Origin: Prochlorococcus sp. scB245a_519A13
GTDB lineage: Bacteria > Cyanobacteriota > Cyanobacteriia > PCC-6307 > Cyanobiaceae
NCBI GenBank assembly: GCA_000634415.1
Contig: JFNH01000167.1
Span: 1 to 61,657, forward strand
Direction of reading: 5' to 3'
DNA length: 61,657 bases
A program made the position numbers and the translations under genes. Each line of letters starts with the position of its first letter. Positions within the stretch are counted from its first letter, which is position 1. Of the stretch, positions 171 through 22,397 are shown in pieces. A model generated the notes under the pieces. That model made no database searches, had not been told where the DNA came from, and worked only from the letters and a program-made list of their open reading frames with translations.

Positions 171-3100
171 ATGGTAGAGAGTATCAAAAGAATCGTTGGC
201 CCATATAAAGATAGTTATTCCCCAAATGGAATAATTGGGGAGAAAGATGCCTGTGGAGTTGGTTTCATAGCACATGTCAAAGGTATAGAAAGCAACTGGA
301 TACTTAAACAATCACTTAAGGGCCTTAACTGCATGGAGCATAGAGGAGGTTGTGGTGGAGATAGTGACTCAGGAGATGGAGCAGGGATTTTATGTTCAAT
401 TCCATGGGAATACCTAGAAAAGGAAATAGATCTAAAAAATACACAAGGATTGCATAGAGGTTTAGGCATGGTTTTTATGCCTAATAAAGAAGAGAAAATT
501 GAAAAATGTAAATCAATATGCGATCAGGAAGCAGAAAAATTAAAAGTTAACAAAACATCTTGGAGAACAGTACCTGTCAATAACGAAATCTTAGGTCCTT
601 TAGCTAAAGCAAATGCTCCGTTCATCTCTCAGTGGTTTTTATACATAGATAAAAAAGATCATCAGGATATTGAGAGGCTTTTATTTCAATTAAGAAAAAG
701 AATTGAAAAAAAAATAAGAGAAACTTTTAAAAACCATGTTGGGGATTGTGAATTTTATTTTGCCTCACTAAGTTCTCAAACAGTTGTTTATAAAGGCATG
801 GTACGTTCTGAAATATTGTCTGAGTTTTATCAAGATCTAAAAGAAGAGAGTTTTAAAGTCTCATTTTCTGTTTATCATCGTAGATTTAGCACCAATACAC
901 TTCCAAAATGGCCACTAGCTCAGCCCATGAGATTTTTAGGTCATAATGGCGAAATAAATACTCTTTTAGGTAATATCAATTGGGCTAAAGCTTCAGAAAC
1001 ACATATCGATAATTTTTGGGGAGAGTTATCTCAAGAAATCAAGCCCATTGTAGATGTAAACAAAAGTGATTCATCAAATCTTGATGCAACCCTAGAAATT
1101 AATATTCGCTCAGGTCAACCAATAACTGATTCATTATTAAAACTTGTTCCTGAAGCATTTAGAGATCAACCAGAACTTGAGGAGAGAGAGTATATAAAAG
1201 CTTTTTATGAATATTCTGCAAGCCTACAAGAAGCTTGGGATGGTCCAGCACTCCTTGTATTTGCTGATGGAAATTTTGTCGGAGCAACGCTTGATAGAAA
1301 TGGCCTAAGACCAGCAAGATATTCAATCACTAATGATGGTTTTGTAATAATGGGTTCTGAAACAGGAGTAGTAGATCTTGAAGAAGAAAGAGTAATAGAG
1401 AAAGGTCGATTAGGACCGGGACAAATGTTGGCGGTTGATTTTCATCAGAATAGAATCCTAAGAAATTGGGAAGTAAAATCTGAAGCCGCTAAAAGGCATG
1501 ATTATAAAAATCTTCTCAGTAATAGAAGTATAAAAATCGAGAAAAATGCATGGGTTAAAGCCTGCAAACTAAAAGACCTTGAGTTGTTGCAACAACAAAC
1601 TGCATACGGGTTTTCAGCGGAAGATAATGACCTTATCTTAGATTCAATGGCTTCATTAGCTAAAGAGCCAACTTATTGCATGGGCGACGACATCCCATTA
1701 GCAGTTCTTTCATCTAAGCCACATATTTTATACGACTACTTTAAGCAAAGATTTGCGCAAGTTACTAATCCTCCTATTGATCCTCTGAGAGAAAAACTTG
1801 TAATGAGTTTAGAGATGCATCTAGGAGAAAGATGTACACCATTTGAAATTAAAGATGCTAAACCTTTTATTCATTTACAAAGTCCGATTCTCAATGAGGA
1901 AGAACTCATTTCCATCAAAAAATCAAAAATTAAATCTCAGACAATTTCAAGTTTGTTTGATTTAGAGGAAGGTATTCAAGGCTTAGAGAACCAATTAAAA
2001 CTAATCTGCAAACAGAGTGAGCTGTCTATACAAGAAGGTTGCTCTTTAATTATCATTTCTGATAAGGGAATTAATCCTAAAAAGACTTTCATACCTCCTC
2101 TACTTGCTGTTGGAGCAATTCATCATTATCTTCTTAAAAAAGAAATTAGGCTAAAAGCTTCTCTAATAATTGAGACCGGTCAATGTTGGAGCACACATCA
2201 CTTAGCTTGTTTAATTGGATATGGAGCAAGCGCAGTTTGCCCTTGGTTGACCTTCGAAGCGGGTAGACACTGGTTAAAACATCCAAAAACACAAAAACTC
2301 ATTGATAGCAAAAAAATAAATCCATTATCAATAGTTGATGTTCAAGAAAATATTAAAAAAGCTCTAGAAGACGGTCTAAGAAAAATTCTCTCAAAAATAG
2401 GCATCTCACTTTTATCTAGTTATCATGGTGCACAAATTTTTGAAGCTGTAGGCCTTGGATCTGATTTAATAAAAATTGCTTTTGATGGTACAACAAGTCG
2501 TATCGCTGGCATAACATTAAAAGAATTAACTAATGAAACACTTTCAATACATACGAAAGCCTATCCAGAGATCGATTTAAAGAAATTAGAATTTTTAGGA
2601 TTTGTACAATTTAGAAATAATGGAGAATATCATTCCAATAACCCAGAGATGTCCAAAGTCTTACATTCGGCGGTAAAACAAGGGCCAGGATACGATCATT
2701 TTGAAACTTACAAAAAACTTATTAGTAATAGACCGACAACATCTCTTAGAGATTTACTAACAATTAATTCAAAAAGAAAAAGTATCCCATTAGAGGAAGT
2801 TGAAAGTGTTGAATCAATTTGCAAAAGGTTCTGTACTGGAGGAATGAGTTTAGGTGCCTTATCCAGAGAAGCGCATGAAGTTTTAGCAGTTGCAATGAAT
2901 AGAATTGGTGGAAAAAGTAATAGTGGAGAAGGGGGAGAAGATCCAGCTCGTTTTAATGTTTTAAATGATATCGATGAAAATACTAAGTCAGCGACTTTGC
3001 CATTTATTAAAGGCTTAAAGAATGGAGACACCGCATGCTCGGCTATTAAACAAATAGCATCAGGAAGATTTGGAGTTACACCTGAATATCTAAGAAGTGG

Positions 3101-4733
3101 TAAACAACTCGAAATTAAAATGGCTCAAGGTGCAAAACCCGGAGAAGGTGGACAATTACCTGGTCCAAAAGTTGATTCTTACATTGCAAAACTAAGAAAT
3201 AGTAAACCTGGAGTAGCTTTAATATCTCCTCCCCCGCATCATGATATTTATTCAATTGAAGATCTAGCTCAACTTATCCACGACTTACACCAAGTTCATC
3301 CAAAAGCGAAAGTAAGCGTTAAACTTGTTTCTGAAATTGGTATAGGCACTATTGCTGCTGGAGTAAGCAAAGCTAATGCAGATGTAATTCAAATATCAGG
3401 CCATGACGGAGGTACAGGTGCTTCACCCCTGAGTTCTATTAAACATGCAGGTTTACCATGGGAACTTGGTGTTGCTGAGGTTCATAAATCTCTCTTAGAG
3501 AATAACTTACGCGAAAGAGTAATTTTGAGAACTGATGGAGGTCTTAAAACAGGCTGGGACGTAGTTATTGCAGCTTTACTAGGTGCTGAAGAATACGGTT
3601 TTGGTTCTGTAGCGATGATTGCTGAAGGATGCATAATGGCTCGGGTTTGTCATACAAATAAGTGTCCTGTTGGAGTTGCCACTCAAAAAGAAGAATTAAG
3701 AAAAAGATTTAAAGGTATTCCAGAAAATGTCGTCAATTTTTTCTTGTATATTGCTGAAGAAGTAAGACAAATAATGTGTAGTATCGGTGTTTCTAATATG
3801 GAAGAACTGATTGGTAATCAAGAATTTCTTTCTGCAAGAAATATCGATCTTCCAAAAACTTCTAATATTGATCTTTCCTCTTTAGTAAATGAACACTCAA
3901 CCCCGGATAGAGCATGGTTAAAACACTTAAAAACTGCCCATAGTAATGGTTTTGTATTAGAAGACGAGTTTTTGTCTGATACTAAATTTATAAATTCAAT
4001 TAAAAATCACGAAATATTAACCAAAGATATTGAGATAAAAAATACAGATAGAAGTGTTTGTGCGAAAATATCAGGCGAAATCGCAGAACTTCACGGCAAC
4101 ACAGGCTTCAATGGCGAACTCAACTTAAATTTCAAAGGATATGCAGGACAAAGCTTTGGTGCCTTTTTATTGAAAGGAATGAATGTTCAATTAATCGGAG
4201 AAGCAAATGATTATGTTTGTAAAGGAATGAATGGAGGAATACTCACAATAATTCCACCAAAAATAAATGAAATCTCCTCCGAACAAGTCATCCTAGGAAA
4301 TACTTGTCTTTATGGAGCAACAGGTGGAAAATTATTTGCACTAGGAAAATCTGGAGAAAGATTTGCAGTTAGAAATAGTGGTGCTACAGCGGTAACAGAA
4401 GGAGCAGGTGATCATTGTTGTGAGTACATGACTGGAGGGAAAGTTGTTATTCTAGGTTCCACAGGAAGGAATATTGGTGCGGGCATGACTGGTGGAATAG
4501 CTTTTATAATCGATGAAAATAATGATTTAAGTAATAAAGTAAATAAAGAAATAGTAAGCATTCATCAAATAACTTCATCAAAGCAGGAAAATATCTTATT
4601 GGAAATTATTAGAGAATATCAAGCAAAAACAAATAGCTTAAAGGCTGCAAAAATAATTGAAAATTGGTCTCATTTTAAGAGTGCTTTCAAATTGATTGTC
4701 CCCCCAAGCGAAGAAGAGATTCTTGGTTTGTAA
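171..4733 (+). CDS. gltB: Ferredoxin-dependent glutamate synthase
   Basis: Makes two glutamates from glutamine and 2-oxoglutarate using reduced ferredoxin; this is the GOGAT half of ammonium assimilation. The 1520-aa length fits the family. Residues 25-32 read KDACGVGF, where Cys28 should be the N-terminal nucleophile of the glutaminase domain after propeptide removal. The order is glutaminase domain, central domain, FMN-binding barrel (motif GGTGASPLSSIKHAG), the 3Fe-4S cysteine cluster CHTNKCPVG, and a C-terminal GXGXG beta-helix. No gltD follows, which supports the ferredoxin rather than the NADPH type. A YciI-like gene starts 8 nt downstream. The 170 nt upstream hold no gene, and I found no convincing GTA-N8-TAC NtcA site there. 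Confidence 0.97.
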   Translation: MVESIKRIVGPYKDSYSPNGIIGEKDACGVGFIAHVKGIESNWILKQSLKGLNCMEHRGGCGGDSDSGDGAGILCSIPWEYLEKEIDLKNTQGLHRGLGMVFMPNKEEKIEKCKSICDQEAEKLKVNKTSWRTVPVNNEILGPLAKANAPFISQWFLYIDKKDHQDIERLLFQLRKRIEKKIRETFKNHVGDCEFYFASLSSQTVVYKGMVRSEILSEFYQDLKEESFKVSFSVYHRRFSTNTLPKWPLAQPMRFLGHNGEINTLLGNINWAKASETHIDNFWGELSQEIKPIVDVNKSDSSNLDATLEINIRSGQPITDSLLKLVPEAFRDQPELEEREYIKAFYEYSASLQEAWDGPALLVFADGNFVGATLDRNGLRPARYSITNDGFVIMGSETGVVDLEEERVIEKGRLGPGQMLAVDFHQNRILRNWEVKSEAAKRHDYKNLLSNRSIKIEKNAWVKACKLKDLELLQQQTAYGFSAEDNDLILDSMASLAKEPTYCMGDDIPLAVLSSKPHILYDYFKQRFAQVTNPPIDPLREKLVMSLEMHLGERCTPFEIKDAKPFIHLQSPILNEEELISIKKSKIKSQTISSLFDLEEGIQGLENQLKLICKQSELSIQEGCSLIIISDKGINPKKTFIPPLLAVGAIHHYLLKKEIRLKASLIIETGQCWSTHHLACLIGYGASAVCPWLTFEAGRHWLKHPKTQKLIDSKKINPLSIVDVQENIKKALEDGLRKILSKIGISLLSSYHGAQIFEAVGLGSDLIKIAFDGTTSRIAGITLKELTNETLSIHTKAYPEIDLKKLEFLGFVQFRNNGEYHSNNPEMSKVLHSAVKQGPGYDHFETYKKLISNRPTTSLRDLLTINSKRKSIPLEEVESVESICKRFCTGGMSLGALSREAHEVLAVAMNRIGGKSNSGEGGEDPARFNVLNDIDENTKSATLPFIKGLKNGDTACSAIKQIASGRFGVTPEYLRSGKQLEIKMAQGAKPGEGGQLPGPKVDSYIAKLRNSKPGVALISPPPHHDIYSIEDLAQLIHDLHQVHPKAKVSVKLVSEIGIGTIAAGVSKANADVIQISGHDGGTGASPLSSIKHAGLPWELGVAEVHKSLLENNLRERVILRTDGGLKTGWDVVIAALLGAEEYGFGSVAMIAEGCIMARVCHTNKCPVGVATQKEELRKRFKGIPENVVNFFLYIAEEVRQIMCSIGVSNMEELIGNQEFLSARNIDLPKTSNIDLSSLVNEHSTPDRAWLKHLKTAHSNGFVLEDEFLSDTKFINSIKNHEILTKDIEIKNTDRSVCAKISGEIAELHGNTGFNGELNLNFKGYAGQSFGAFLLKGMNVQLIGEANDYVCKGMNGGILTIIPPKINEISSEQVILGNTCLYGATGGKLFALGKSGERFAVRNSGATAVTEGAGDHCCEYMTGGKVVILGSTGRNIGAGMTGGIAFIIDENNDLSNKVNKEIVSIHQITSSKQENILLEIIREYQAKTNSLKAAKIIENWSHFKSAFKLIVPPSEEEILGL

Positions 4734-6282: not shown

Positions 6283-6906
6283 TTGACTTTTAAATTTAAA
6301 AGAAAACGTATTTTATTATCGGAAAGAAGTAAAACCTCTAAAGCAGTAGGGTATGCTAGAGCTACTCATAACGAATATGAATATTTAGAAGAGCAAATAA
6401 AAATTTTGAAGGAAGAGGGTTGCAGTTTAGTTTTCTCTGAATTGATAAGTTTAGATGAAGAAATCAAACCCCAACTCAATAAAGCTGTAAATTCCTTATC
6501 AAAAGGCGATCAATTAATAATAACTCAGCTTGATCGAGCATTTAAAAATAAAAAAGAATGTTTGATAACAATAAATAAACTTATAAATAAGGATATTCAA
6601 TTGCGAACTTTGACTGGTTTTTTTGCTGCTAATGAATCTGATAATGCAAATTCTTTAATTTTTAAAATTTTATATGAATTAGATAATTTAGAAGACAAAA
6701 GTTTAGGTGAAAGAAAAAAAGAACAACTATTACGCAGAAAATTATCTGGAAATAATTTGGGAGGAAGGCCCAAAATAAGTCCTCTAAAAGAATCTTTAGT
6801 AATCAGATTGCGTAATGAAGGATATTCTTATCGATCAATCAGATCACAAACAGGAATTGCGTTGTCAACAATAAGAAGAGTAATTTTGGAAGGAGAACTA
6901 ACATAA
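6283..6906 (+). CDS. Degenerate serine-recombinase (resolvase/invertase) family protein
   Basis: A 207-aa protein with the architecture of small serine recombinases. It has a resolvase core beginning GYARAT (residues 23-28), a long connecting helix, and a C-terminal helix-turn-helix (about 170-203) of the Hin/resolvase type. Against gamma-delta resolvase the catalytic serine of YARVS is Thr28. The first active-site arginine (Arg26) and the LDR arginine (Arg85) survive, but the second arginine of LDRLGR is Lys88 and the SGS/R45 region is not recognisable. Recombination activity is therefore doubtful and a DNA-binding role is likelier (inference). The start is TTG with no Shine-Dalgarno and no nearby alternative. 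A 70-aa gene follows after 1 nt. Confidence 0.75.
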   Translation: MTFKFKRKRILLSERSKTSKAVGYARATHNEYEYLEEQIKILKEEGCSLVFSELISLDEEIKPQLNKAVNSLSKGDQLIITQLDRAFKNKKECLITINKLINKDIQLRTLTGFFAANESDNANSLIFKILYELDNLEDKSLGERKKEQLLRRKLSGNNLGGRPKISPLKESLVIRLRNEGYSYRSIRSQTGIALSTIRRVILEGELT

Positions 6907-6907
6907 A

Positions 6908-7120
6908 ATGAAGAGGAAAGAAATTGAAAATTTAATTAAAGAAAATTTTAAAGATACAGCGTTGCGTATTTATGAATTAGATAATGAAGATAGAAAAAGT
7001 TTATTAGCTGAATATAGAGAATGGATTATGAATGATTTAGATTTTGAAGAAGTAATGATGTTGCCTTATGAAGCATATACTGACAAATTAGATTCTAATT
7101 TCTTAGAAGATTCAATTTAG
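6908..7120 (+). CDS. Small acidic hypothetical protein
   Basis: A 70-aa protein I do not recognise. It is rich in Glu, Asp and Lys, predicted helical, with a conserved-looking aromatic/acidic C-terminus (LPYEAYTDKLDSNF). It has no cysteines, membrane segment or signal peptide. The ATG lies 1 nt past the stop of the recombinase-like gene, so the two are almost surely translated from one message and may act together. Its stop is 2 nt from that of the convergent beta-lactamase-fold gene. Confidence 0.7.
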   Translation: MKRKEIENLIKENFKDTALRIYELDNEDRKSLLAEYREWIMNDLDFEEVMMLPYEAYTDKLDSNFLEDSI

Positions 7121-7122
7121 TC

Positions 7123-8025
7123 CTAAATAGTATATTTTTTATTAAATTCATATACTTCTTTTGATATTAATGGTAGGAAAGAAGAATCTTTAGAATATTT
7201 TTCACCATCACAAAAAACAACTAATAAAGTATGTAGAGATTGACTATTAGTCCACCAAGCAGAATCATGTCTAACTTCTGACATTAAACCTGCTTTACTC
7301 CAAAGATTAATGCTTTCTGGTAAGCCTGCACCCAAAAAACCATCTATTTGATTAAGGGAATCGTTTTTAAGAACAACTTTATCTAAATTTCTTTTTAAAA
7401 AACTTCGTAAATTTAAATCATTTCTTTGATAATCAATATGAATCATAATTTCCTCCAAAACCCTTGCAGCCGAATCAGAATTCATAGCGTTTCTATTTTT
7501 ATTATTATGTCCATAAAATTCTTTTTCACGACCAAATGGTCCATCATCCCAGGTCTTCTGACAGCAATTTAAACCACTCAATTCCTCCCAATGTAAATCA
7601 TGTAGCCAATCGTTTATTATACTCCTTTGATATTTCCAATTTTCCCATGATGCGCCCTCAATACTAGGTCCACTTGTTGTTCCAGTAAGTAAATCAATTA
7701 AATAGCTTGTTGCATTATTACTTGAGAAAGATAACATTTTCCTTACAGCATCAATAATTTCATCCGATAATAATAAACTTCCTTTTTTAATCCAATAATA
7801 TGTAGCAAGACCATAAACCAACTTGACTATGCTGGCAGGGTAAAACATTTTTTTATTATTTATGCCAGTGCCAAAACCTTTAAATACACTTTTATTTCCA
7901 CTTTTATAATTAATCCAAGTTATGGCAATATCTTCACTTGAAAAATCTTTATTATAAGAGCATACTCTCCCTAAAATATCATTTAAGGCTAGACCCATCT
8001 CTTCACTTAAATAGTAAAAGGACAT
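7123..8025 (-). CDS. Beta-lactamase-fold serine hydrolase (class A-like)
   Basis: A 300-aa member of the serine beta-lactamase/penicillin-binding superfamily. The three active-site motifs are visible: SxxK as SIVK at residues 65-68, SDN-like SNN at about 102-104, and a KTG-like KAG at 244-246. There is no N-terminal signal peptide, so unlike secreted beta-lactamases it probably stays in the cytoplasm. Its start codon is 3 bp from that of the divergent NlpC/P60 gene, hinting at a shared job in peptidoglycan fragment turnover (inference). A start at Met10 is also possible. True beta-lactam hydrolysis is not implied. Confidence 0.8.
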   Translation of the reverse strand: MSFYYLSEEMGLALNDILGRVCSYNKDFSSEDIAITWINYKSGNKSVFKGFGTGINNKKMFYPASIVKLVYGLATYYWIKKGSLLLSDEIIDAVRKMLSFSSNNATSYLIDLLTGTTSGPSIEGASWENWKYQRSIINDWLHDLHWEELSGLNCCQKTWDDGPFGREKEFYGHNNKNRNAMNSDSAARVLEEIMIHIDYQRNDLNLRSFLKRNLDKVVLKNDSLNQIDGFLGAGLPESINLWSKAGLMSEVRHDSAWWTNSQSLHTLLVVFCDGEKYSKDSSFLPLISKEVYEFNKKYTI

Positions 8026-8028
8026 TGT

Positions 8029-8787
8029 ATGGAAAATTATAAAAATCCTATCTCACTATTTAAACAAACTAATTTTTCAAAAACTATTTGGTGGAAATTA
8101 AAAGTTAATATTTCGGGATATCAAAATGAAACAGAAGATAAATTAGTTACTGAAATACTTAAAAATAGAATTTTTAGGCTTATTTATCCAAATATTTATC
8201 AAAACAATCATAAATTTTCAAGAATACTAGTTCAACTATATGAAGATGGCTATGTCTGTTGGATAAATTTAGATGGATTACTTATTGAGAAATACGAATT
8301 CAGAAAAAATAACAGCTTAGAAAATGAACACTTCTTTATAAAAGATAAGGTTAACTCAATTTTAAAATGGATCAAGGATCAATCTGAGTTAAATAATGAA
8401 TATCTTTGGGGAGGTACATTAGGACCCAATTATGATTGTTCTGGATTAATTCAGACTGCTTTTTTAAAGCATCAAATTTATATACCTCGAGACTCTTTTC
8501 AAATAAAAAGTTTTTGTAAGCATCTTTTTTATTACAAAGAATCGTATGCGGTTCTACGGCCTGGCGATCTTTTATTTTTTGGAAATGAAAAAAAATGTGA
8601 TCATATTGGAATCTACAAAGGAGACGGATTCTATTACCATAGCTCTGGAATGGATTTTGGAAGAAATGGAATAGGATTAGATACCCTAAAAAAGTCTAAT
8701 GATAAAATCTCATTGCATTATAAATCTAAACTTATTTCGGCAGGAAGAGTAGTTAGAAATTATAGATGGGACCGCACTATACGTTAA
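8029..8787 (+). CDS. NlpC/P60 family cell-wall peptidase
   Basis: A 252-aa cysteine peptidase. The C-terminal NlpC/P60 domain shows the catalytic Cys137 in DCSGL, the His192 of DHIGIY and a third polar His204 in YYHSSG. The N-terminal about 90 residues have the look of an SH3b domain, the arrangement of cyanobacterial gamma-D-glutamyl-diamino-acid endopeptidases that trim peptidoglycan stem peptides. There is no signal peptide, which favours a cytoplasmic recycling role over wall cleavage. It is divergent from the beta-lactamase-fold gene with only 3 bp between start codons. Confidence 0.87.
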   Translation: MENYKNPISLFKQTNFSKTIWWKLKVNISGYQNETEDKLVTEILKNRIFRLIYPNIYQNNHKFSRILVQLYEDGYVCWINLDGLLIEKYEFRKNNSLENEHFFIKDKVNSILKWIKDQSELNNEYLWGGTLGPNYDCSGLIQTAFLKHQIYIPRDSFQIKSFCKHLFYYKESYAVLRPGDLLFFGNEKKCDHIGIYKGDGFYYHSSGMDFGRNGIGLDTLKKSNDKISLHYKSKLISAGRVVRNYRWDRTIR

Positions 8788-8851
8788 TTAATAGAGCTCA
8801 ACTTAAAATTTTAAATTAAATTAAAATATCACTTATTCTTTTATTTAGAAA

Positions 8852-9451
8852 TTAACCAGCAGTCCAAATGTTTTTAATGATTGGCATTATGGTATCTAAG
8901 TGTAATGTCCCAACAAGTAACCAAGCAAAAACAGCTCCTCCACATCCTCCTAACCAAAATCCACTGGTAAAATCAGCCCAACCAGCTCTTGTAAATAAGT
9001 CCTTTGGCGGATTATTAACAGTCGCATCTGGAGGTTGAACATTAGGTGCTTTACCAGGTGCATTGTATAGAACAAAAAGTGCTGTCAAAATATGAACAGC
9101 TCCAATAGTAGCGAGAAGTCCAGCTGTTAGAGCAAATTCAGAATTTCTTAATGGGCCAGTCATGGTAAAAGGTCCGTATAGAAGATATCCAAAAGCTGCT
9201 CCAGTTTCTAAACCTCTAAAATTAGGAGAAATACCTTCTCTGTAAAAAGGTAAATTATTTATAAAGGCTTTAGTAAAATAACCACTATTAACTGGAGTAG
9301 CTAAATTACCAACACAAGGATCAGCAACTGTTTTTACGGCCCATTGTTCTGCTACGCCAATATCATTTGGTTGTACAGAAGTATCTATGTATTTCTCATC
9401 AAACTTTATAGAACTTGTTGATTCAGAGAATGATTTTTGAAAGTCGCTCAT
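8852..9451 (-). CDS. psaL: Photosystem I reaction centre subunit XI
   Basis: PsaL, the subunit that holds PSI trimers together. The 199-aa sequence contains the characteristic stromal segment and the segment [19 protein letters not shown], followed by hydrophobic spans around residues 108-130 and 160-185. It has an N-terminal extension typical of Prochlorococcus compared with about 155-aa freshwater PsaL. It sits 27 nt downstream of psaI on the same strand, and the two should be one operon. Confidence 0.96.
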
Positions 9452-9478
9452 TTTTTTAATAGTTTAGTGTTTGATAAT

Positions 9479-9592
9479 TTATTCAGTTGCTGTAATTAAT
9501 CTTCCAATTAATACGATAAAAACAGCAGGCATTGCTATACCAATTAATGGAACAAAAATTGAGGGTAAAAGACTTGGTAAATCAGATGGCAT
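9479..9592 (-). CDS. psaI: Photosystem I subunit VIII
   Basis: A 37-aa single-span membrane protein reading MPSDLPSLLPSIFVP at its start and ending RLITATE. This matches PsaI, which contacts PsaL in the trimer core. It was found by translating the minus strand between psaL and the plus-strand gene at 9685. The ATG at 9592 is preceded by a near-perfect 10-bp tandem repeat (9597-9616). The psaI-psaL order is usual for cyanobacteria. Confidence 0.93.
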   Translation of the reverse strand: MPSDLPSLLPSIFVPLIGIAMPAVFIVLIGRLITATE

Positions 9593-9596
9593 AGTT

Positions 9597-9616
9597 CTTT
9601 AAACATCTTTAAACAC
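9597..9616 (-). repeat. Tandem 10-bp repeat in the psaI leader
   Basis: Two adjacent copies of a decamer (GTGTTTAAAG then ATGTTTAAAG on the minus strand) end 4 nt before the psaI start codon, in the ribosome-binding region. There is no Shine-Dalgarno sequence. A TATAAAT box lies further upstream at about 9627-9633 (minus strand) and could be the -10 element. Confidence 0.55.
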
Positions 9617-9684
9617 TTTAGTATTTATAATCGAAATAATGTTAATTTTATTACTGGATGATATAAAAATTATTAACTTTTTAC

Positions 9685-10077
9685 ATGTTAAATTTTTTCG
9701 CAATTTTACTTATTATTTTTATAGGAATATTACTTCTAGTTTTTAAAAAAAGAAGCCTTAAAAAGTTAATAAATCAAAGCAATTTAAATTCTATTAAATT
9801 AAAGAAAAATAAAAAAAGTAATAATAAATTTCTATTTAAAAAAAATAGTTATTTATACAATCACGAAGAAACAAAGTACTCAGTATTTTATAAAAATTCT
9901 CAAAGAAATAAAATGATTAGTCTTTTTCAGGGTGATACAGAAAATAAATTAAAGGCATTAAAAATTGCGGAAGAATTGGCTGATAAATCAACATTACCAA
10001 TTTTACGAAAAGGCTTAAAAGATATTTCTCCTGAAGTCGTTGAAATTTCGGCTTTATTAATAGGACAGTTCAAGTAA
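9685..10077 (+). CDS. Small membrane-anchored protein with HEAT-like C-terminus
   Basis: A 130-aa protein I cannot name. Residues 2-20 form one hydrophobic span, followed by a very basic Lys/Asn-rich linker (about 22-55). The C-terminal 50 residues (ENKLKALKIAEELADKSTLPILRKGLKD) resemble a single HEAT or Armadillo-type helical repeat. It is probably anchored in a membrane with the basic part in the cytoplasm. It is divergent from psaI and converges on the glycosyltransferase gene with 4 nt between stops. No function is assigned. Confidence 0.7.
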   Translation: MLNFFAILLIIFIGILLLVFKKRSLKKLINQSNLNSIKLKKNKKSNNKFLFKKNSYLYNHEETKYSVFYKNSQRNKMISLFQGDTENKLKALKIAEELADKSTLPILRKGLKDISPEVVEISALLIGQFK

Positions 10078-10081
10078 ACAA

Positions 10082-11044
10082 TCAATTTTGCTTAGCACTG
10101 TTTATTGATCTAATTCTGTAAATTGGACGACTTTGACTTTCATGATATGTCCTAATTAAAAGTTCACTCAATAATCCAAAGCTAAATAATTGAACACCAG
10201 CAATTCCTAAGATTAATGCAAACATTAGCAACGGGCGATTTCCAATATCCTCACCCATTATTTTTAAAACTATCAAATAAGAACTTATCGCAAGGCTAAA
10301 GAAAATACTTATAATGCCAACAAAGCCAAATCCATACATCGGTCTTGTTAAAAATTTAGTCATAAACCAAACAGTTAGTAAATCCATTAAAACTCTAAAA
10401 GTTCTATCAATTCCATATTTACTAGATCCATATTGCCTGCTCCTATGATTTACTTTAATTTCTTTGATTCTTGCACCTTCAATTTTTGCTAATACGGGCA
10501 AAAACCTGTGAAGTTCCCCATATAACTTTATATCTTCTATTATTTCTTTCTTAAATGCTTTTAATGAGCAACCATAGTCATGCAACTTCAAACCTGTTAC
10601 GTGAGCTATTAACTTATTCGCAATTTTTGATGGTATCTTTCTATTAATTAATTTATCTTTTCTATCAAACCTCCAACCACAAACCAAATCATAACCATTA
10701 TTAATTTCTGAAATTAATAAAGGAATATCATTTGGATCATTCTGTAAATCACCATCCAAAGTAATAACAATATCGCCCTTAGAATTATCAAAGCCAGCTG
10801 ACATTGCTGCAGTTTGACCATAATTTTTGCGAAGAGAAATTACTGACAATTCTTTAATTTTGAGAGTTAGTTGCTTTAATACTTGATGAGTATTATCTTT
10901 AGAACCATCATTTACAACAATCAATTCAAAATTAAATTTATGAGAAGACATTACATTTATAACTTCATCCAATAAAAGACCAATACTCTCGCTTTCATTG
11001 AAAACTGGGATGATAATAGAAATTAATTGTTTTATATCTGACAT
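10082..11044 (-). CDS. Family 2 glycosyltransferase, polyprenyl-phosphate type
   Basis: A 320-aa GT-A enzyme of the dolichol-phosphate-mannose synthase/GtrB class, which moves a sugar from a nucleotide donor to a lipid phosphate carrier. Visible are the N-terminal SIIIPVFNE, the VVNDGSKD donor site, the DxD-like LDGDLQ, and RKNYGQTAA. Two C-terminal membrane spans (about 230-260 and 270-295) are typical of GtrB-like proteins. The likely role is cell-envelope glycan or lipid A decoration; the sugar is unknown. It lies downstream of psaB but is separated from it by a terminator. Confidence 0.88.
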   Translation of the reverse strand: MSDIKQLISIIIPVFNESESIGLLLDEVINVMSSHKFNFELIVVNDGSKDNTHQVLKQLTLKIKELSVISLRKNYGQTAAMSAGFDNSKGDIVITLDGDLQNDPNDIPLLISEINNGYDLVCGWRFDRKDKLINRKIPSKIANKLIAHVTGLKLHDYGCSLKAFKKEIIEDIKLYGELHRFLPVLAKIEGARIKEIKVNHRSRQYGSSKYGIDRTFRVLMDLLTVWFMTKFLTRPMYGFGFVGIISIFFSLAISSYLIVLKIMGEDIGNRPLLMFALILGIAGVQLFSFGLLSELLIRTYHESQSRPIYRIRSINSAKQN

Positions 11045-11100
11045 TTATATTTAATAATAATTACACAATTTTAACTTAATTTAGAACTTTGAAATTAAAC

Positions 11101-11129
11101 AAAAAAAATCACCACGTTTGTGGTGATTT
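11101..11129 (-). terminator. Rho-independent terminator of psaA-psaB
   Basis: A perfect 10-bp inverted repeat (aaatcaccac / gtggtgattt) with a 4-nt loop at 11106-11129. On the minus strand it is followed by a run of T residues. It begins about 20 nt past the psaB stop. This is the only textbook intrinsic terminator I found in the window. Confidence 0.85.
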
Positions 11130-11147
11130 AAATTATTTAAGAGAAAT

Positions 11148-13376
11148 TTAACCAAACTTACCTGAAGTAGAAGCGATAACAAATGCCCCAAATGTAAGTA
11201 TGTTTCCAATAGTAAAATGTGCTAATCCAACTAATCGAGCTTGAACAATTGAAAGTGCAACTGGCTTATCTCTCCAGCCAACAAGGTTAGCAATTGGAGT
11301 ACGTTGATGAGCCCAAACTAATGTTTCAATTAACTCTTGCCAGTAACCACGCCATGATATTAAGAACATGAAGCCAGTAGCCCAAACTAAGTGACCGAAT
11401 AGGAACATCCAAGCCCAAGGAGATAGAGAATTTACTCCAAATGGATTATATCCATTAATAAGTTGAGCAGAGTTTAACCAGAGATAATCTCTAAACCAAC
11501 CCATCAGATAAGTTCCTGATTCGTTAAATTGTGCTACGTTACCCTGCCAAATCGCTAGGTGTTTCCAATGCCAGTAGAAAGTTACCCATGCTAGTAAATT
11601 TAATGCCCAGAACATAGCTAAATACATAGCGTCCCATGATGAACTATCACAAGTACCTCCACGTCCTGGTCCATCGCAAGGGAAAGCGTAACCTAAATCT
11701 TTCTTATCGGGAATTAATTTTGTTCCTCTAGCATCAAGTGCACCTTTGATAAGGATTAATGCAGTTGTATGAAGACCTAAAGCGATAGCATGGTGAACTA
11801 AGAAATCTGCTGGGCCGATAGGTAAGAAAGCACTTAATGCATCTTGTCTATTGATAAGATCCATCCAGTAATGATTACCTGGTAATGAATTAGCTGCGAG
11901 AGTTGCTGAACTTGTAGGATCAGATAATAGAGCATTAAAGCCATACATCATCTTACCTTGAGAAGCTTGAACAAATTGAGCAAATACTGGCTCAATTAGA
12001 ATTTGCTTTTCAGGATTACCAAAAGCTACAACAACATCGTTATGAACATAAATTCCAAGAGTATGGAATCCAAGCAACATTGTTACCCAACTAAGGTGAC
12101 TTATCAAAGCTTCCTTTGTTCCAAGAACTCTTGCTAATACATTGTCTTTATTTAATTCCGGATCATAATCTCTTACAAAGAAAATAGCACCATGTGCAAA
12201 TGCGCCAACCATCAAGAACATTGCTATGTACTGATGATGACTATATAAAGCAGATTGTGTAGTGTAGTCCCTAGCAATAAAAGCATAAGAAGGAAGGGCA
12301 CCCATGTGTTGCGCTACAAGAGAAGTTGCTACACCAAGTGATGCTAAAGCTAGTCCAAGTTGGAAATGTAATGAATTATTTACAGTTTCATATATTCCAT
12401 CATGATTAATTCCGAAACTACCTTTATGAGGATCATTAGGATGTCTTGTATTATGAGCTTCTGTAATTTCTTTGAGGCTATGACCAATACCGAAGGTATT
12501 TCTATACATATGACCAGCAATTACAAAAACTGTTCCTATCGCAATATGGTGATGCGCAATATCAGTAAGCCATAATGCTTCACTTTGAGGATGAAGACCG
12601 CCTAAGAAAGTAAAGATTGCTGTTCCTGCTCCCTCTGCTGTGCCAAAAACTTGATCTAGAGAATCAGGATTTTGGGCATATGCTCCCCAGTTTAAAGTAA
12701 AGAAAGGAGCTAATCCTGCAGGGTGTGGAAGGACTGTTAACCAGTTATCCCAACCTACATGCTGTCCTCTTGATTCAGGTATAGCAACATGAACTAAATG
12801 ACCTGTCCAAGCGATACTACTAAAACCAAATAATACAGCTAGATGATGATTTAATCTTGACTCTGCATTTTTAAACCATGCTAAAGAAGGTCTGAATTTT
12901 GGCTGTAAGTGTAACCAACCAGCAAATAAAGTCCAACAAGCCAAAATACTCATAAAAATTGAAGCTTGGAAGAGTTGCTCATTAGTTCTCATTCCAATTG
13001 TGTACCACCAATGGTAGAGACCTGAGTAAGCTATATTTACTGGACCGCTAGCACCAGCTTGTGTCATTGCTTCTGTGATACCAGATCCAAAATGTGGATC
13101 CCAAATAGCATGAGCTATAGGACGAACGTGAGTTGGATCAAGTACAAATTGCTCGAAGTTTCCTTGCCAAGCAATATGAAATAAGTTACCAGCTACCCAG
13201 AGGGCGATTATTGCTAGATGACCAAAATGTGTAGAGAAAAGCTTCTGATAGAGCTTTTCCTCGGTCATACCATCATGACTTTCAAAGTCGTGAGCGGTAG
13301 CTATTCCGTACCATATTCGTCGGGTTGTAGGGTCCTGAGCTAGACCCTGGTTAAATGATGGAAATTTTGTTGCCAT
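11148..13376 (-). CDS. psaB: Photosystem I P700 apoprotein A2
   Basis: PsaB, one half of the PSI core heterodimer that binds P700, A0, A1 and, with PsaA, the FX cluster. The 742-aa length is normal. The FX loop [16 protein letters not shown] carries both cysteine ligands, and the many membrane His residues (for example HHHIAIG) bind chlorophyll. It starts 27 nt after psaA on the same strand and ends at a strong terminator, so it is a two-gene operon. Confidence 0.98.
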
Positions 13377-18755: not shown

Positions 18756-18768
18756 CACGGAGAGGGAG
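18756..18768 (+). repeat. Candidate att site: 13-bp copy of tRNA-Ser 3' end
   Basis: CACGGAGAGGGAG here is identical and in direct orientation to 21046-21058, the 3' end of tRNA-Ser(GCU). With the tRNA on the minus strand its 3' end faces this copy, which is the geometry left by a tyrosine-integrase element inserted at a tRNA 3' end. A 13-bp match is short, so chance or decay is possible. Confidence 0.5.
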
Positions 18769-18784
18769 TTGTTCAGAGTGAACT

Positions 18785-18814
18785 CATATGGAAGCATATG
18801 GAACTATATGGAAG
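18785..18814 (+). repeat. Three tandem 10-bp repeats (CATATGGAAG type)
   Basis: Three consecutive units of consensus CATATGGAAG, one helical turn each, followed by a further CAT. The second unit ends in C rather than G and the third begins with T rather than C. The spacing would place each CATATG or TATATG on the same DNA face. It lies 17 bp from the candidate att copy. Confidence 0.65.
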
Positions 18815-18836
18815 CATAAAAATGAAGAGAGAAGGA

Positions 18837-18860
18837 TTTCCTACCCTAAATCCTACCCCC
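18837..18860 (+). repeat. TTTCCTACCCT motif, left pair
   Basis: One exact TTTCCTACCCT (18837-18847) followed by a degenerate copy ending TCCTACCCCC (18851-18860). The same 11-mer recurs three times on the far side of the export gene. It could be an integrase arm-binding site or other protein site (inference). Confidence 0.55.
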
Positions 18861-19048
18861 TATGTTTTTACTGAAATTTAACCTTTAATTTCAATGGTTT
18901 GGGGATGTATTTGGATAATGGAGATTCAGACCTTTCACTTTGGGACTTATATTTATGATGATTATAAAAAGGATTAACCTAGTTCAAAAATGTTCTTTGA
19001 TCAGGTTCAGCAAAATAATAAAATATTTTTGACTATATAGCTATAAGA

Positions 19049-19075
19049 CTAGAAAGCTAGTAAACTAGAAACTAG
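19049..19075 (+). repeat. Four CTAG-containing short repeats
   Basis: CTAG occurs at 19049, 19057, 19065 and 19072, in units like CTAGAAAG and CTAGTAAA with a period of 7-8 bp. It is preceded by the palindrome TATAGCTATA (about 19036-19045). The block ends 14 bp before the TTG start of the export gene, so it lies in that gene's leader. Confidence 0.5.
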
Positions 19076-19089
19076 ATAATTTCTTATTC

Positions 19090-20817
19090 TTGAGAGTTCA
19101 AAAGAATATTTTTGAGAAATTTTTTAGATTACTTACATTTGAAAGTAATTTTAAATTGCTTTTTATTTTTAATTTTTTAATATCTATTTTTATATTTGAC
19201 CTCGTCAAGGCAGAAAGTGATAATGCAAATTTAAATAGTAATAGTGAGCTTGAAATAGATTATTTAGATTCAAGAAATAAATTAGAAGACCTTAATCTTG
19301 ATTCAGAAACTATTGAACTAATTCTTGAAAATGCGAAAAATAGAGCTGAGATTGATATTGATTATTTAAATCCAAAAAATGAATTGGAGGACTACATTGT
19401 TGATACTGGAGATTCTCTATTAATAGAATTTAAAAATAAACCAAGAGGATTAGGATTAATTGAAAGGGAATATGATCCAAAAAATATATCCTATTTAAAC
19501 CCAAGAAATGACCTTAGAAATTATAAATTAGATGAGGGCGATACTCTAGCAATTAATTTTTTAAAGACTCCGGCGCTAAACGTTAACCAAACAATTGATC
19601 AGGAAGGAGAAATATATCTTTCTCGATTGAAATCAACTTATATAAAAGGTCTCAATATATATCAATTAAAAAATTTATTAGAAGAAAAATATAAAGAATT
19701 CCTTATTGATCCTGAAATTGAGATCCGAATTTCAGGATTTAGATTCATTGGTTCTGGAATATATTCAATAAGTAACGAAGGAGAGATCATGCTCCCACTA
19801 CTTAAAGAAACTTACGTTAGAGGGTTAACTACAAATGAAATATCTAATTTATTAAGTAAAAAATATTTAAATTCGGAATATATTTCTTCAGAAGTAGAAA
19901 TTAGAATAGCTAACTTTAAACCTCAAAGAATCTTAATAACTGGCGAAATAAGAAATCCTGGAATCTATAAATTCCCAGGTTATAGTTCTGGAGAGTTTCT
20001 TGCAGTAGAAAATATAAAAGTTGATACATCTCAAAAAGGAGAAATGGGAAATGAAACTAAAGATTCTATTTCACTAGAAATTGATGGCGAAAACACAACT
20101 GAAGGACAATTGAATAGTCGTGAATCAAAGTTATCTTCAAATCAGAATGCTCAGAACAATACTACAATGCAAAATTTTCAAGTAAAAAGACCATCTGAAA
20201 ATTTCACCACTATATCTAATGCAATTAGAAGAGCAGGAGGAATAACATCTAAAACTGATTTGTCTCGCATCGAAATTATAAGAGATATCCCTATTGGGAA
20301 AGGAGGTGGAAAACAAAGAGCAGTTATAGACTTTACTTCTTTTATAAATGAAAGTGATCCTACTAACGATATTAGATTATTTGATGGAGATAGAATATTT
20401 TTACCAAAGCTTGCAACAGCTTCTAATGATATCATCCCAAAATCAATCCTGAGCGGTCTTTCTCCAAGATTTATAACAGTAGATATTTTTGGTAGAGTCG
20501 AAAATCCTGGAACTGTAAAATTACCTTTAGAAGCTGCATTATCAGACGCAATTAATTTAACTGGACCGATAAAACCTTTATCAGGAAAAATTGTTTTGAT
20601 AAGGTACAACAAAGATGGGACAATTTTGAATAAAAATATTTCATATTCTGCTAGAGCAAAAAGAGGTTCGAGAAAAAATCCTTTTGTAAAAGAAGGTGAT
20701 TTAATATCTGTTAAAAATAGTATTTTAGGAAAAACTACAGGTGTGATTAGAGAACTTACAGCACCATTTATAGGAATTTATTCAACTAAAGAAGTAATTG
20801 AAAGTTTTAATGATTAA
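19090..20817 (+). CDS. Polysaccharide export (Wza/SLBB-like) protein
   Basis: A 575-aa secreted or outer-membrane protein of the polysaccharide biosynthesis/export family. An N-terminal signal sequence (basic start, then hydrophobic about 22-42, ending KAES) is clear. Residues about 50-160 contain three degenerate copies of a YLNPRNDLRNYKLDEGD-type motif. A poly-export domain (about 155-235) follows, then several SLBB-like beta-grasp segments (LITGEIRNPGIYKFPGY; DIFGRVENPGTVKLP). A Ser/Asn/Gln-rich insert lies at about 315-375. The start is TTG. It stands alone inside the tRNA-Ser islet with no polymerase or chain-length partner in view. Confidence 0.85.
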   Translation: MRVQKNIFEKFFRLLTFESNFKLLFIFNFLISIFIFDLVKAESDNANLNSNSELEIDYLDSRNKLEDLNLDSETIELILENAKNRAEIDIDYLNPKNELEDYIVDTGDSLLIEFKNKPRGLGLIEREYDPKNISYLNPRNDLRNYKLDEGDTLAINFLKTPALNVNQTIDQEGEIYLSRLKSTYIKGLNIYQLKNLLEEKYKEFLIDPEIEIRISGFRFIGSGIYSISNEGEIMLPLLKETYVRGLTTNEISNLLSKKYLNSEYISSEVEIRIANFKPQRILITGEIRNPGIYKFPGYSSGEFLAVENIKVDTSQKGEMGNETKDSISLEIDGENTTEGQLNSRESKLSSNQNAQNNTTMQNFQVKRPSENFTTISNAIRRAGGITSKTDLSRIEIIRDIPIGKGGGKQRAVIDFTSFINESDPTNDIRLFDGDRIFLPKLATASNDIIPKSILSGLSPRFITVDIFGRVENPGTVKLPLEAALSDAINLTGPIKPLSGKIVLIRYNKDGTILNKNISYSARAKRGSRKNPFVKEGDLISVKNSILGKTTGVIRELTAPFIGIYSTKEVIESFND

Positions 20818-20853
20818 TTCATCCTTTTGTAGCCATATTTGGCGGGTGTTTTT

Positions 20854-20882
20854 GTCGTGATGCAGGTATACCCTGCTACGAC
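20854..20882 (+). other. Imperfect hairpin downstream of the export gene
   Basis: Arms GTCGT (20854-20858) and GCAGG (20862-20866) pair with CCTGC (20872-20876) and ACGAC (20878-20882) around a TATAC loop, with a small GAT/T internal loop. It is GC-rich against an AT-rich background. It lacks a following T-tract, so it is either a weak terminator or a recombination or protein site of the islet. Confidence 0.5.
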
Positions 20883-20887
20883 TGCAA

Positions 20888-20932
20888 TTTCCTACCCTCT
20901 ACCAAATAATTTCCTACCCTATTTCCTACCCT
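20888..20932 (+). repeat. TTTCCTACCCT motif, right triplet
   Basis: Three exact copies of the 11-mer TTTCCTACCCT at 20888-20898, 20910-20920 and 20922-20932 in the same orientation as the left copy at 18837. A further CTACC lies between the first two. Clustered direct repeats beside a tRNA gene recall integrase arm sites. Confidence 0.65.
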
Positions 20933-21047
20933 CCAAAGATGAAATTCCGTGATACTCTGTGAATGTCTCTGATTTTCCTTTTTCTGCATAAGTATTAGTA
21001 TCACTAGCTTCAGGAACATTATGAACTTCCATGCTCTACCAAAACCA

Positions 21048-21136
21048 CGGAGAGGGAGGGATTCGAACCCTCGACAAAAGTTACCTCCTGTAACTCCTTA
21101 GCAGGGAGCCGCTTTCAACCACTCAGCCACCTCTCC
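21048..21136 (-). tRNA. tRNA-Ser (GCU)
   Basis: An 89-nt class II tRNA on the minus strand. The acceptor stem GGAGAGG pairs with CCTCTCC and the discriminator is G. The D-loop contains GAGTGGTTGAAAG. The anticodon loop is CTGCTAA, giving anticodon GCT, with a 5-bp stem GCTCC/GGAGT. There is a long variable arm and a GGTTCGAATCC T-arm. CCA is not encoded. Its 3' end is the candidate attachment site of the adjacent islet. Confidence 0.95.
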
Positions 21137-21197
21137 AGTTCTTATACATTATCAATTTTTCTGCAAACATTCAAAATTTTTTATTTAATCGAAATGT

Positions 21198-22397
21198 CTA
21201 ATCAACTTGAACTCTAGGTAATCTATTTTTAAAAGAACAAAGAATTTCCCACGGTATAGTATTGGATTTTCTTGCCCATTCAAGAGGAGAAATTGTTTTG
21301 TCTCCATCAGATCCTAGTAATGTTATGGTACTACCAACTTTAATTTCACTTGAACCTGTTATGTCCACCATCATTTGATCCATAGTTATGGATCCAACTT
21401 GAGGATAAAGTTTATGATTATGAATAACGTTTATCTTTCCTGAAAGATTTCTTGGTACTCCATCTGCGTATCCAATACTTAATACAGCCAACTTAGTTTT
21501 TCTACTAGTTACAAACTTTCCTCCATAACTTACACCAACACCTGGATCAATAGTTCTAATAAAAGCTACTTTAGCTTTCAAAAATAAAGCTGGTTTAAGT
21601 GATAAATTTTTATCTATTTTGTCTAAAGGACTGTATCCATACATAGAAAGCCCAACACGTACCATATGAAAATGAAAATCTTTGTTAATAAGCATTCCCG
21701 CAGAATTAGCCAAATGAATCTTAATTTCATTATTTCGATCAAGATTAATTTGCTTTAATAATTCATTAAACTTCATTCTTTGTAATTGTGTAATACTTTT
21801 AGCATCTGATGCGTTAGCTTCATCTGCAGAAGATAAATGACTATATATTCCTTCTATTAAAATGTTCTCAAAAGATTTTATTTTCTCAAATTGCTCAACA
21901 AATTTTTTAGATTCGAATCCTAATCTTGACATTCCAGTATCAACTTTAAGATGTAAGGGAAATTTCAATCCAAATTGCTTACCAATGTTATTGCAAATTA
22001 AACACTCTCTTATACAACTGATAGTTGGCATAAGATCATTTTTAAAACAAATAATAAGATCCCTTTTCCTATAAAGATTTCCGAGGATAAGTATTGGTTT
22101 TTTAACTCCAGAAGAACGAAGCTTTATGCCTTCATTTAATGTGGCAACACCTAATTGAGTTGCTCCACCTTTGATAGCATACTCTGATACTAATTTCGCA
22201 TCATGTCCATATCCATCAGCTTTAACGACTGCCATAAATTGACAATTTTTACTTAATTTTGATCTTAACTGCCTAACGTTTGTTTCTATTTCTTTACCTT
22301 TAACTTCGATCCATGCTCTTTGTTTTAGATCTATATCTTTTTCAAAATTTAGAAATTTGTCAAAATTAAATACCTGATTTGTTTGCCTATTTTGCAT
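21198..22397 (-). CDS. alr: Alanine racemase
   Basis: PLP enzyme that makes D-alanine for peptidoglycan. The PLP lysine is Lys59 in AVVKADGYGHD, and the catalytic tyrosine on the partner subunit is in GVSYGG. The 399 aa are slightly long because of about 25 extra N-terminal residues before RAWIEVKGKEIETN. An internal start is therefore possible but not compelling. It is divergent from the HNH gene. Confidence 0.95.
   Translation of the reverse strand: MQNRQTNQVFNFDKFLNFEKDIDLKQRAWIEVKGKEIETNVRQLRSKLSKNCQFMAVVKADGYGHDAKLVSEYAIKGGATQLGVATLNEGIKLRSSGVKKPILILGNLYRKRDLIICFKNDLMPTISCIRECLICNNIGKQFGLKFPLHLKVDTGMSRLGFESKKFVEQFEKIKSFENILIEGIYSHLSSADEANASDAKSITQLQRMKFNELLKQINLDRNNEIKIHLANSAGMLINKDFHFHMVRVGLSMYGYSPLDKIDKNLSLKPALFLKAKVAFIRTIDPGVGVSYGGKFVTSRKTKLAVLSIGYADGVPRNLSGKINVIHNHKLYPQVGSITMDQMMVDITGSSEIKVGSTITLLGSDGDKTISPLEWARKSNTIPWEILCSFKNRLPRVQVD

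Follow-up and report, generated by a model that had tools for sequence, protein, structure and literature searches.

A putative integrase-less element carrying a polysaccharide export gene at the tRNA-Ser(GCT) site of Prochlorococcus

The tRNA-Ser(GCT) locus in the window and in other genomes

The window analysed here is a stretch of 61,657 nucleotides from Prochlorococcus sp. scB245a_519A13 (assembly GCA_000634415.1, contig JFNH01000167.1) and represents one contig of the genome that we number G000. Within it, a Wza-like polysaccharide export gene lies between an intact tRNA-Ser(GCT) gene (21047-21137, minus strand; ARAGORN, Rfam RF00005) and a second copy of the 3' end of that gene. This end, CACGGAGAGGGAG, is present as an exact 13-bp repeat on the plus strand, once at the tRNA gene (21046-21058, the tRNA-side attachment or att copy) and once at 18756-18768 (the distal att copy). 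Core to core, the interval 18757-21046 measures 2290 bp, and we treat it as an integrated element without assigning it a strand; it is absent from 34 of 61 loci compared, and 26 others carry other inserts. The flanking core genes outside the element encode a HAD hydrolase (PF00702; 17934-18722, plus strand) and an alanine racemase (21198-22397, minus strand). The latter, the anchor of our locus search, we take to be alr from an earlier note, made on this DNA from its letters alone, and from general knowledge.

That note had proposed the 13-bp repeat of the tRNA-Ser(GCU) end as the mark of an integrated element. Both copies coincide with the boundaries of a polymorphism between empty and filled sites, i.e. 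attL and attR are kept. By simple arithmetic, about 0.002 exact 13-mer matches are expected by chance within the window, and a chance origin of the repeat is irrelevant because the locus was compared across genomes.

A search with alr through 151 genomes of the genus gave a match in 123. The region was fetched from 60 of these, taken as the best alr matches with enough contig and then near-complete genomes, which together with the window makes 61 loci (L numbers denote loci, G numbers genomes). G023 and G053 were skipped since alr is located at the contig end, and locus L059 was completed with L125. Of the 60 fetched loci, 59 have HAD next to the site; for the sixtieth genome it was placed there via L125. 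The site is empty in 34 of the 61 loci, with a single att copy and an intact tRNA end 32-43 bp after HAD (n = 34; the gap of 62 in L031 arises only because the HAD match ends 8 residues early). The remaining 27 hold varied inserts of 255 bp to about 10.7 kb. A left core beside HAD is recognisable in 20 of these 27, 36-52 bp past the last HAD codon, the position of the single copy in empty genomes; in L073 it lies 59 bp past HAD and has two mismatches. Aligning the HAD-to-alr interval across strains, as the earlier note had advised, thus revealed neither uniform content nor a lack of precise gain and loss.

Cargo at the site includes genes for a polysaccharide lyase (L043), a YadA-type adhesin (L057), a sulfotransferase (L070), a carbamoyltransferase (L086) and DUF3804 (L068), with weaker AlgX-like and GDSL-like matches in L076 and L086; many open reading frames (ORFs) in the inserts match no name. 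An integrase is encoded in four of the 27 filled loci (L039, L048, L053, L059). The other 23 gave no match in tblastn with the L039 integrase at E 1e-5, and inspection by eye of the ORF list, which covered 26 of the fills, showed none in them either. Tandem elements with a core copy between them occur in L079, L048, L127, G049 and L122.

In the window, the only gene of at least 60 aa found by a scan for non-overlapping ORFs encodes the Wza-like protein (19090-20817, plus strand; 575 aa, TTG start as listed), which has Poly_export and SLBB domains (PF02563, E 3.8e-21; PF10531, E 8.3e-14; PF22461, E 6.3e-8). The content reported earlier, one export gene and no integrase, was borne out: this is the one long gene between the repeats, and no integrase was found there. 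The protein, a Wza-type outer-membrane polysaccharide exporter, probably alters the cell surface. Wza-related proteins of 415, 575 and 700 aa are found in related elements, and by eye the copy number of an N-terminal repeat unit (like YLNPRNDLxxYxLDxGD) seems variable (L127 at 1930-4576, the window, L139). Just upstream of tRNA-Cys, a tRNA gene associated with another integrase family in published work, loci L144, L152, L153 and L154 carry Wza homologues (54-78% to that of the window), and the wza cargo may have its chromosomal origin in these.

The window copy lacks a CopG-like gene and most of a DUF3804 gene, both of which are present in L068, L143, L145 and L147. Its left end meets the last 39 bp of DUF3804 at a microhomology, TGGAGATT (18919-18926, plus strand), which alignments with L139 and L145 identify as the junction of the deletion that removed the two genes. 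The relic (18920-18958, plus strand) codes for GDSDLSLWDLYL followed by a stop, as read against the intact gene in L068. L068 lacks wza. A simple swap of DUF3804 and wza cargo was considered, but the two genes occur together in L143, L145 and L147, and the idea gave way to a deletion from some larger ancestor. The ancestral cargo would have been CopG/DUF3804 plus Wza, with Wzz in addition in one relative, and the window copy would have lost its first genes by short-repeat deletion while keeping Wza.

Arm-type motifs and integrase-bearing relatives

The unusually many short repeats remarked on in the earlier note are real. They are mainly TTTCCTACCC motifs (18836-18858 and 20887-20931) and an array of the 10-bp unit CATATGGAAG (18785-18818, plus strand). 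The layout of the former, missing from that note, is the most informative feature of the element. Motifs of 10-12 bp lie inside the element ends at fixed distances from the att copies and recur in related elements. The window has two copies about 80 bp from the distal end, forming the pair ATTTCCTACCC with period 12 (18836-18858), and three copies 125-160 bp from the tRNA end, the first at 20887-20897 and the second and third forming the pair ATTTCCTACCCTATTTCCTACCC (20909-20931), all on the plus strand. Several motif copies on both sides of the core, here two distal and three on the tRNA side, are a feature of lambda-type attP (phage attachment) sites, and the motifs look like integrase arm-type sites that are kept without an integrase. 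The CATATGGAAG array, between the att core and the distal arm sites, possibly binds an excisionase or accessory protein; by eye, comparable repeats can be made out in further left ends (e.g. L041, L123). An RNA element as the origin of the short repeats was rejected, the only Rfam matches above thresholds being tRNAs (other matches were sub-threshold).

Most inserts show the same arrangement: inward of the distal core, a motif pair follows at about 70-92 bp, and inward of the tRNA-side core another at about 132-149 bp. The motif itself differs between classes: TTTCCTACCC in the window, and TTATCCCCT, TTGTCCCC, TTCGCCACACC, TCCCAACAAC, TTTACCCACC, TTTCATCCCC or CGTCACAAC in other inserts. Ten elements of the class of the window were found (window, L068, second element of L079, L122, first element of L127, L139, L140, L143, L145, L147), and eight of the ten carry a Wza homologue. 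The distal pair has the same position in eight other elements, for which the available sequence contains no integrase; among these eight it is degenerate in the first element of L127 and in L143; in the integrase-bearing L122 it lies about 20 bp nearer the core.

Arm pairs were scored in 37 hand-picked elements delimited by core searches, and apparent cores inside coding sequence (e.g. L122 at 10737) were rejected as boundaries. The set excludes six filled loci with a tRNA-side core only (L036, L050, L055, L063, L070, L090), the distal stretches of L073 and L076, distal inserts with poorly defined limits in L122, L124 and L126, and loci that came up at a later stage of the analysis. A pair was called at period 12 with at least 8 of 10 matches in the expected 70-bp stretch, with 100 dinucleotide shuffles as control. 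Such pairs are present at 29 of 37 left ends, where the shuffles gave a mean of 0.36 and at most 2, and at 30 of 35 right ends, where they gave a mean of 0.60 and at most 3; several cargo-only elements have perfect 10/10 pairs. Three cargo-less minis, in which one pair serves as both left and right, were subtracted from the 27 elements with a clear pair at both ends. Of the resulting 24, 21 have left and right units that agree (at least 75%), and with random left-right pairing 0 of 2000 permutations came up to the mean observed; 16 of the 24 have a third tRNA-side copy.

The arm motif predicts location. Among 266 genomes of the genus, the TTTCCTACMC pair was found at six places, spread over five genomes, and the reversed control pattern at none; each of the six belongs to the tRNA-Ser(GCT) locus, five being tRNA-side arrays and one the left array of a second element. 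The TTATCCCCT pair is found at 17 places in 15 of the 266 genomes (control 0). A Ser(GCT)-type core lies beside the pair at 17 of 17 loci, and ARAGORN calls the tRNA at 12 of the 17.

Two side observations concern the site. In L190 (G157:C1, around 1403064), two tRNA-Ser(GCT) genes stand about 1.1 kb apart, each beside alr sequence (one partial) and with one TTATCCCCT arm pair between them; an insert seems either to have introduced the tRNA together with part of alr or to have duplicated them. Inserts of 3-4 kb in L063, L070, L075, L078, L086, L050, L055 and L090, several with TTTACCCACC-type arms, carry sulfotransferase- or carbamoyltransferase-type genes, and their distal end is often decayed; they appear to have occupied the site for longer.

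Trimming may extend to the loss of all cargo. The 218-bp element of L042 and the 1006-bp first element of G049 correspond from one end to the other, at about 98% in the matched parts, except that the whole stretch between the two arm arrays is gone from the former. Further units of 214-218 bp are present in L076, L080 and L203. Judged from these alignments, arm arrays may be hot spots for cargo loss.

The tyrosine integrases of L039 and L048 both match PF00589 just under the cut-off and have a SAM-like match; that of L039 also matches a PHROG integrase family and, weakly, Arm-DNA-bind_3, and has a resolvase-like gene next to it. The profile built from these two integrases defines by its matches the family A1, found at 25 places in 22 of 266 genomes. 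An A1-type integrase lies at the Ser(GCT) locus in nine genomes (L039, L048, L053, G049, L122, L123, L124, L126, L127), and three other A1 loci have tRNA-Ser(CGA) in the fetched stretch (L129, L137, L138).

The left end of the window is shared with one of these integrase-bearing elements. The left end of L122 is of the TTTCCTACCC class and has 81% identity to that of the window over 103 bp; it is followed by an integrase (7148-8383) and directly then by a Wza homologue (8452-9708). The TTCGCCACACC class likewise comprises the integrase-bearing L123 and the cargo-only L041, whose ends are homologous on both sides (81% over 101 bp, 77% over 91 bp).

In a family-level sample, the integrase of L105, which is that of L122, matched at E 1e-40 in 19 of 300 drawn genomes, with tRNA-Ser(CGA) at 12 of 20 loci. 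A weak signal is that 11 of these 20 loci have at least one tandem pair within 1500 bp upstream, against 2.3 by simple shuffles; the positions vary and some pairs resemble low-complexity sequence. The idea that integrase clade dictates arm motif, suggested by a motif common to L098-L101, was dropped, as a Mantel test on seven elements was non-significant. The integrase tree had 15 rows, ORF picking having missed 10 of 25 integrases, five of these with known arm class.

Mobilisation in trans and its alternatives

Taken together, we consider the interval, with a probability of roughly 0.7, to be a non-autonomous integrative element resembling a cis-mobilizable element (CIME), mobilised in trans by a helper integrase and trimmed by deletion. 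A tyrosine integrase would have recombined the 12-13 bp core ACGGAGAGGGAG at the tRNA-Ser(GCT) 3' end with the identical core carried by the element, which was thereby inserted while the tRNA stayed intact. Lacking an integrase gene, the element would keep a lambda-like attachment site of two distal and three tRNA-side arm-type sites. A helper whose N-terminus binds arm sites, supplied by an element that shares the arm class, would attach to arm and core sites and excise or insert the integrase-less element at the tRNA-Ser 3' end. Such action in trans by a same-class helper is possible because the arm-type sites are kept.

Similarity between clades that exceeds that of the flanks suggests that such units also move without an integrase of their own. 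L143 has 74% identity to the window in cobG and 77% in both HAD and alr, yet 88% in wza. L143 and L145 are collinear, with 86% identity over 2925 bp from the core inward and a conserved gene order (CopG-like, DUF3804, Wza); this pair has 74% identity in cobG and 76% in HAD, and neither locus shows a trace of an A1 integrase. The simplest explanation would be that an integrase-less unit was transferred between the clades, presumably by some route from cell to cell.

Several points weigh against this reading. It is deduced, including excision and integration, by comparing sequences, and independent loss of the integrase in both clades is possible. Only one of the ten elements in the class of the window encodes an integrase, namely L122 (L145 is cut by the contig end), and the right end of that unit (6686-11384) is of the TTGTCCCC class; we consider the unit composite because its right end is of another arm class. 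No A1-type match was obtained in the genome of the window, which is 67% complete. For TTATCCCCT, the commonest cargo-only class, no integrase-bearing element is present in the 3-kb loci, the integrase of G049 belonging to the next element. Arm-DNA-bind_3 was matched in only two of five integrases scanned (L039 and L105), below the curated cut-off. Similarity of integrases and of arms is not significantly correlated in the seven elements of the Mantel test (p = 0.15 for the N-terminus, 0.31 for the whole protein, 0.35 for the rest). No clear pair is seen at 8 of the 37 left ends and at 5 of the 35 right ends (in L122 the pair lies outside the scored stretch), and the ends are unlike in 3 of 24 elements. 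L057 and L122 6686-11384, both with unlike ends, are read as putative composites of two elements. Between the window and L140, the element is 88-91% identical, compared with 92-95% for core genes. IMG/VR contains 0 exact arm-pair matches and no close relative of the Wza or the L105 integrase. A phage or satellite as carrier was rejected: the element has no packaging or capsid-interference gene, IMG/VR gave no support, and 11 records of a phage collection matched over the tRNA part of the query alone.

Unlikely, although to be taken seriously, is the explanation that an autonomous element inserted once and lost its integrase in place, leaving a dead remnant with fossil arm sites whose copies in relatives were inherited vertically. 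The deletion in the window copy (the DUF3804 relic), the rarity of A1 integrases and the window/L140 identities fit this, as do the 7 of 27 filled loci (L036, L050, L055, L063, L070, L076, L090) that have no left core beside HAD within two mismatches. The patchy distribution over 34 empty and 27 filled loci argues the other way, as does the collinear integrase-less copy held in common with a clade at 74-77% core identity. Between L139 and L127, core genes are 96-97% identical and the elements only 79-87%, which suggests separate gains, and perfect arm pairs persist in several cargo-only elements.

Ordinary homologous recombination through the conserved flanks HAD, cobG and alr, with the tRNA site as the mark of an old insertion, appears improbable. 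The flanks are syntenic in the sampled loci, and such recombination would move an insert between close relatives. However, in L143 identity jumps from flanks of 74-77% to 88% in wza, and HAD ends only about 50 bp from the core. Over 2983 bp, the integrase-bearing elements of L039 and L124 share 94% identity, compared with 76% in HAD and alr, and the tandem elements with intervening core copies point to site-specific insertion. A stable chromosomal gene beside a chance 13-bp match to the tRNA end, which a short repeat and a plausible core function of the gene might suggest, is refuted by the empty sites and the alternative inserts at the same boundary, while related wza genes also occur elsewhere, e.g. 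beside tRNA-Cys, and we give it practically no credence.

Beyond mobilisation of this one element in trans, a tentative extension, possible but in our view doubtful, is that Prochlorococcus populations share a system of cassettes centred on one tRNA-Ser locus. Few helper integrases would insert, stack, trim and remove a large number of small cargo-only elements, among them several with genes for cell-surface glycans, adhesins or the envelope, and the arm motif would be the address tag of the helper; recombination between arm arrays would drop the cargo and leave an attP scar of 214-218 bp that could be moved or refilled.

The genomes of Prochlorococcus, though small and streamlined, draw on a very large shared gene pool. 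The tRNA-Ser site offers a bounded, testable answer to how single genes enter and leave them: precise empty sites, integrase-less units down to 214 bp, and tags that would predict which integrase pairs with which unit. The cargo that can be annotated is largely surface-related, the kind expected under selection by phages and grazers. Moreover, any genome or metagenome can easily be searched for such elements by the DNA of the arm motifs, also where an integrase is missing.

Comparison with known elements

The tycheposons of Hackl et al. (2023) reportedly carry hallmark replication genes; the sole gene of at least 60 aa in the element is wza. According to an excerpt of the literature, tycheposons measure 4-200 kb, encode a tyrosine recombinase and integrate at one of seven tRNA genes (PMC10872708). 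Common to both are the group of organisms, the anchoring at a tRNA gene and the carriage of cargo, but the element has no recombinase of its own within 18757-21046 and measures 2290 bp as opposed to 4-200 kb (PMC10872708). Hence, of the earlier description, a tRNA-targeted, integrase-less and partly decayed element with a surface-glycan export gene holds, whereas assignment to the tycheposons does not. The literature searched, available in excerpts, contained no description of integrase-less tRNA-Ser elements; the main tycheposon paper lay outside this comparison.

CIMEs are described, in the part of the source consulted, as decayed integrative and conjugative elements (ICEs) or integrative and mobilizable elements (IMEs) that keep attL and attR and lack genes for integration and transfer (PMC5704250). 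The element resembles them in its kept attL and attR, in its lack of integration and transfer genes, and in having relatives in tandem with integrase-bearing elements at one tRNA gene; no conjugation genes were noticed in the elements, although no dedicated search was made. As regards a possible descent from an ICE or IME, L122 holds an integrase-bearing relative with the same left end. Unlike the CIMEs of that source, the elements at the tRNA-Ser site are 0.2-5 kb in size and have whole arm-site arrays in distinct classes, and action in trans is proposed for them besides accretion (PMC5704250).

Module-less elements at one RNA gene are also seen in the Dehalococcoides ssrA islands, of which, as excerpted, many lie in tandem and carry adaptive genes, 15 are without an integration module, and the authors suggest cis-mobilizable elements (PMC3146451). 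There, a CcrB-type serine recombinase acts at ssrA; here, the counterparts are a tyrosine integrase, arm-like sites and tRNA-Ser. In picocyanobacteria, tyrosine integrases at tRNA-Phe or tRNA-Cys are reported, in the portion of the source consulted, from variable islands in both Prochlorococcus and Synechococcus, where a small serine recombinase is often close by (PMC10187409). Such a recombinase is also found near the integrase in L039 and L123, and the integrases described here differ in their target, tRNA-Ser (GCT and CGA). A 42-kb island of Synechococcus RS9917 with an integrase is, according to an excerpt, bounded by tRNA-Ser as well (PMC2784084). Finally, miniature inverted-repeat transposable elements (MITEs) and clusters of attC sites lacking integron integrases (CALIN) use, in the excerpt at hand, a transposase or attC recombination, whereas a tRNA-specific tyrosine integrase with arm-like sites is proposed here (PMC11389934). 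The elements at the tRNA-Ser site share with them a non-autonomous state, kept recognition sites and an enzyme supplied by a relative, and the cargo-less forms of 214-218 bp are the most MITE-like.

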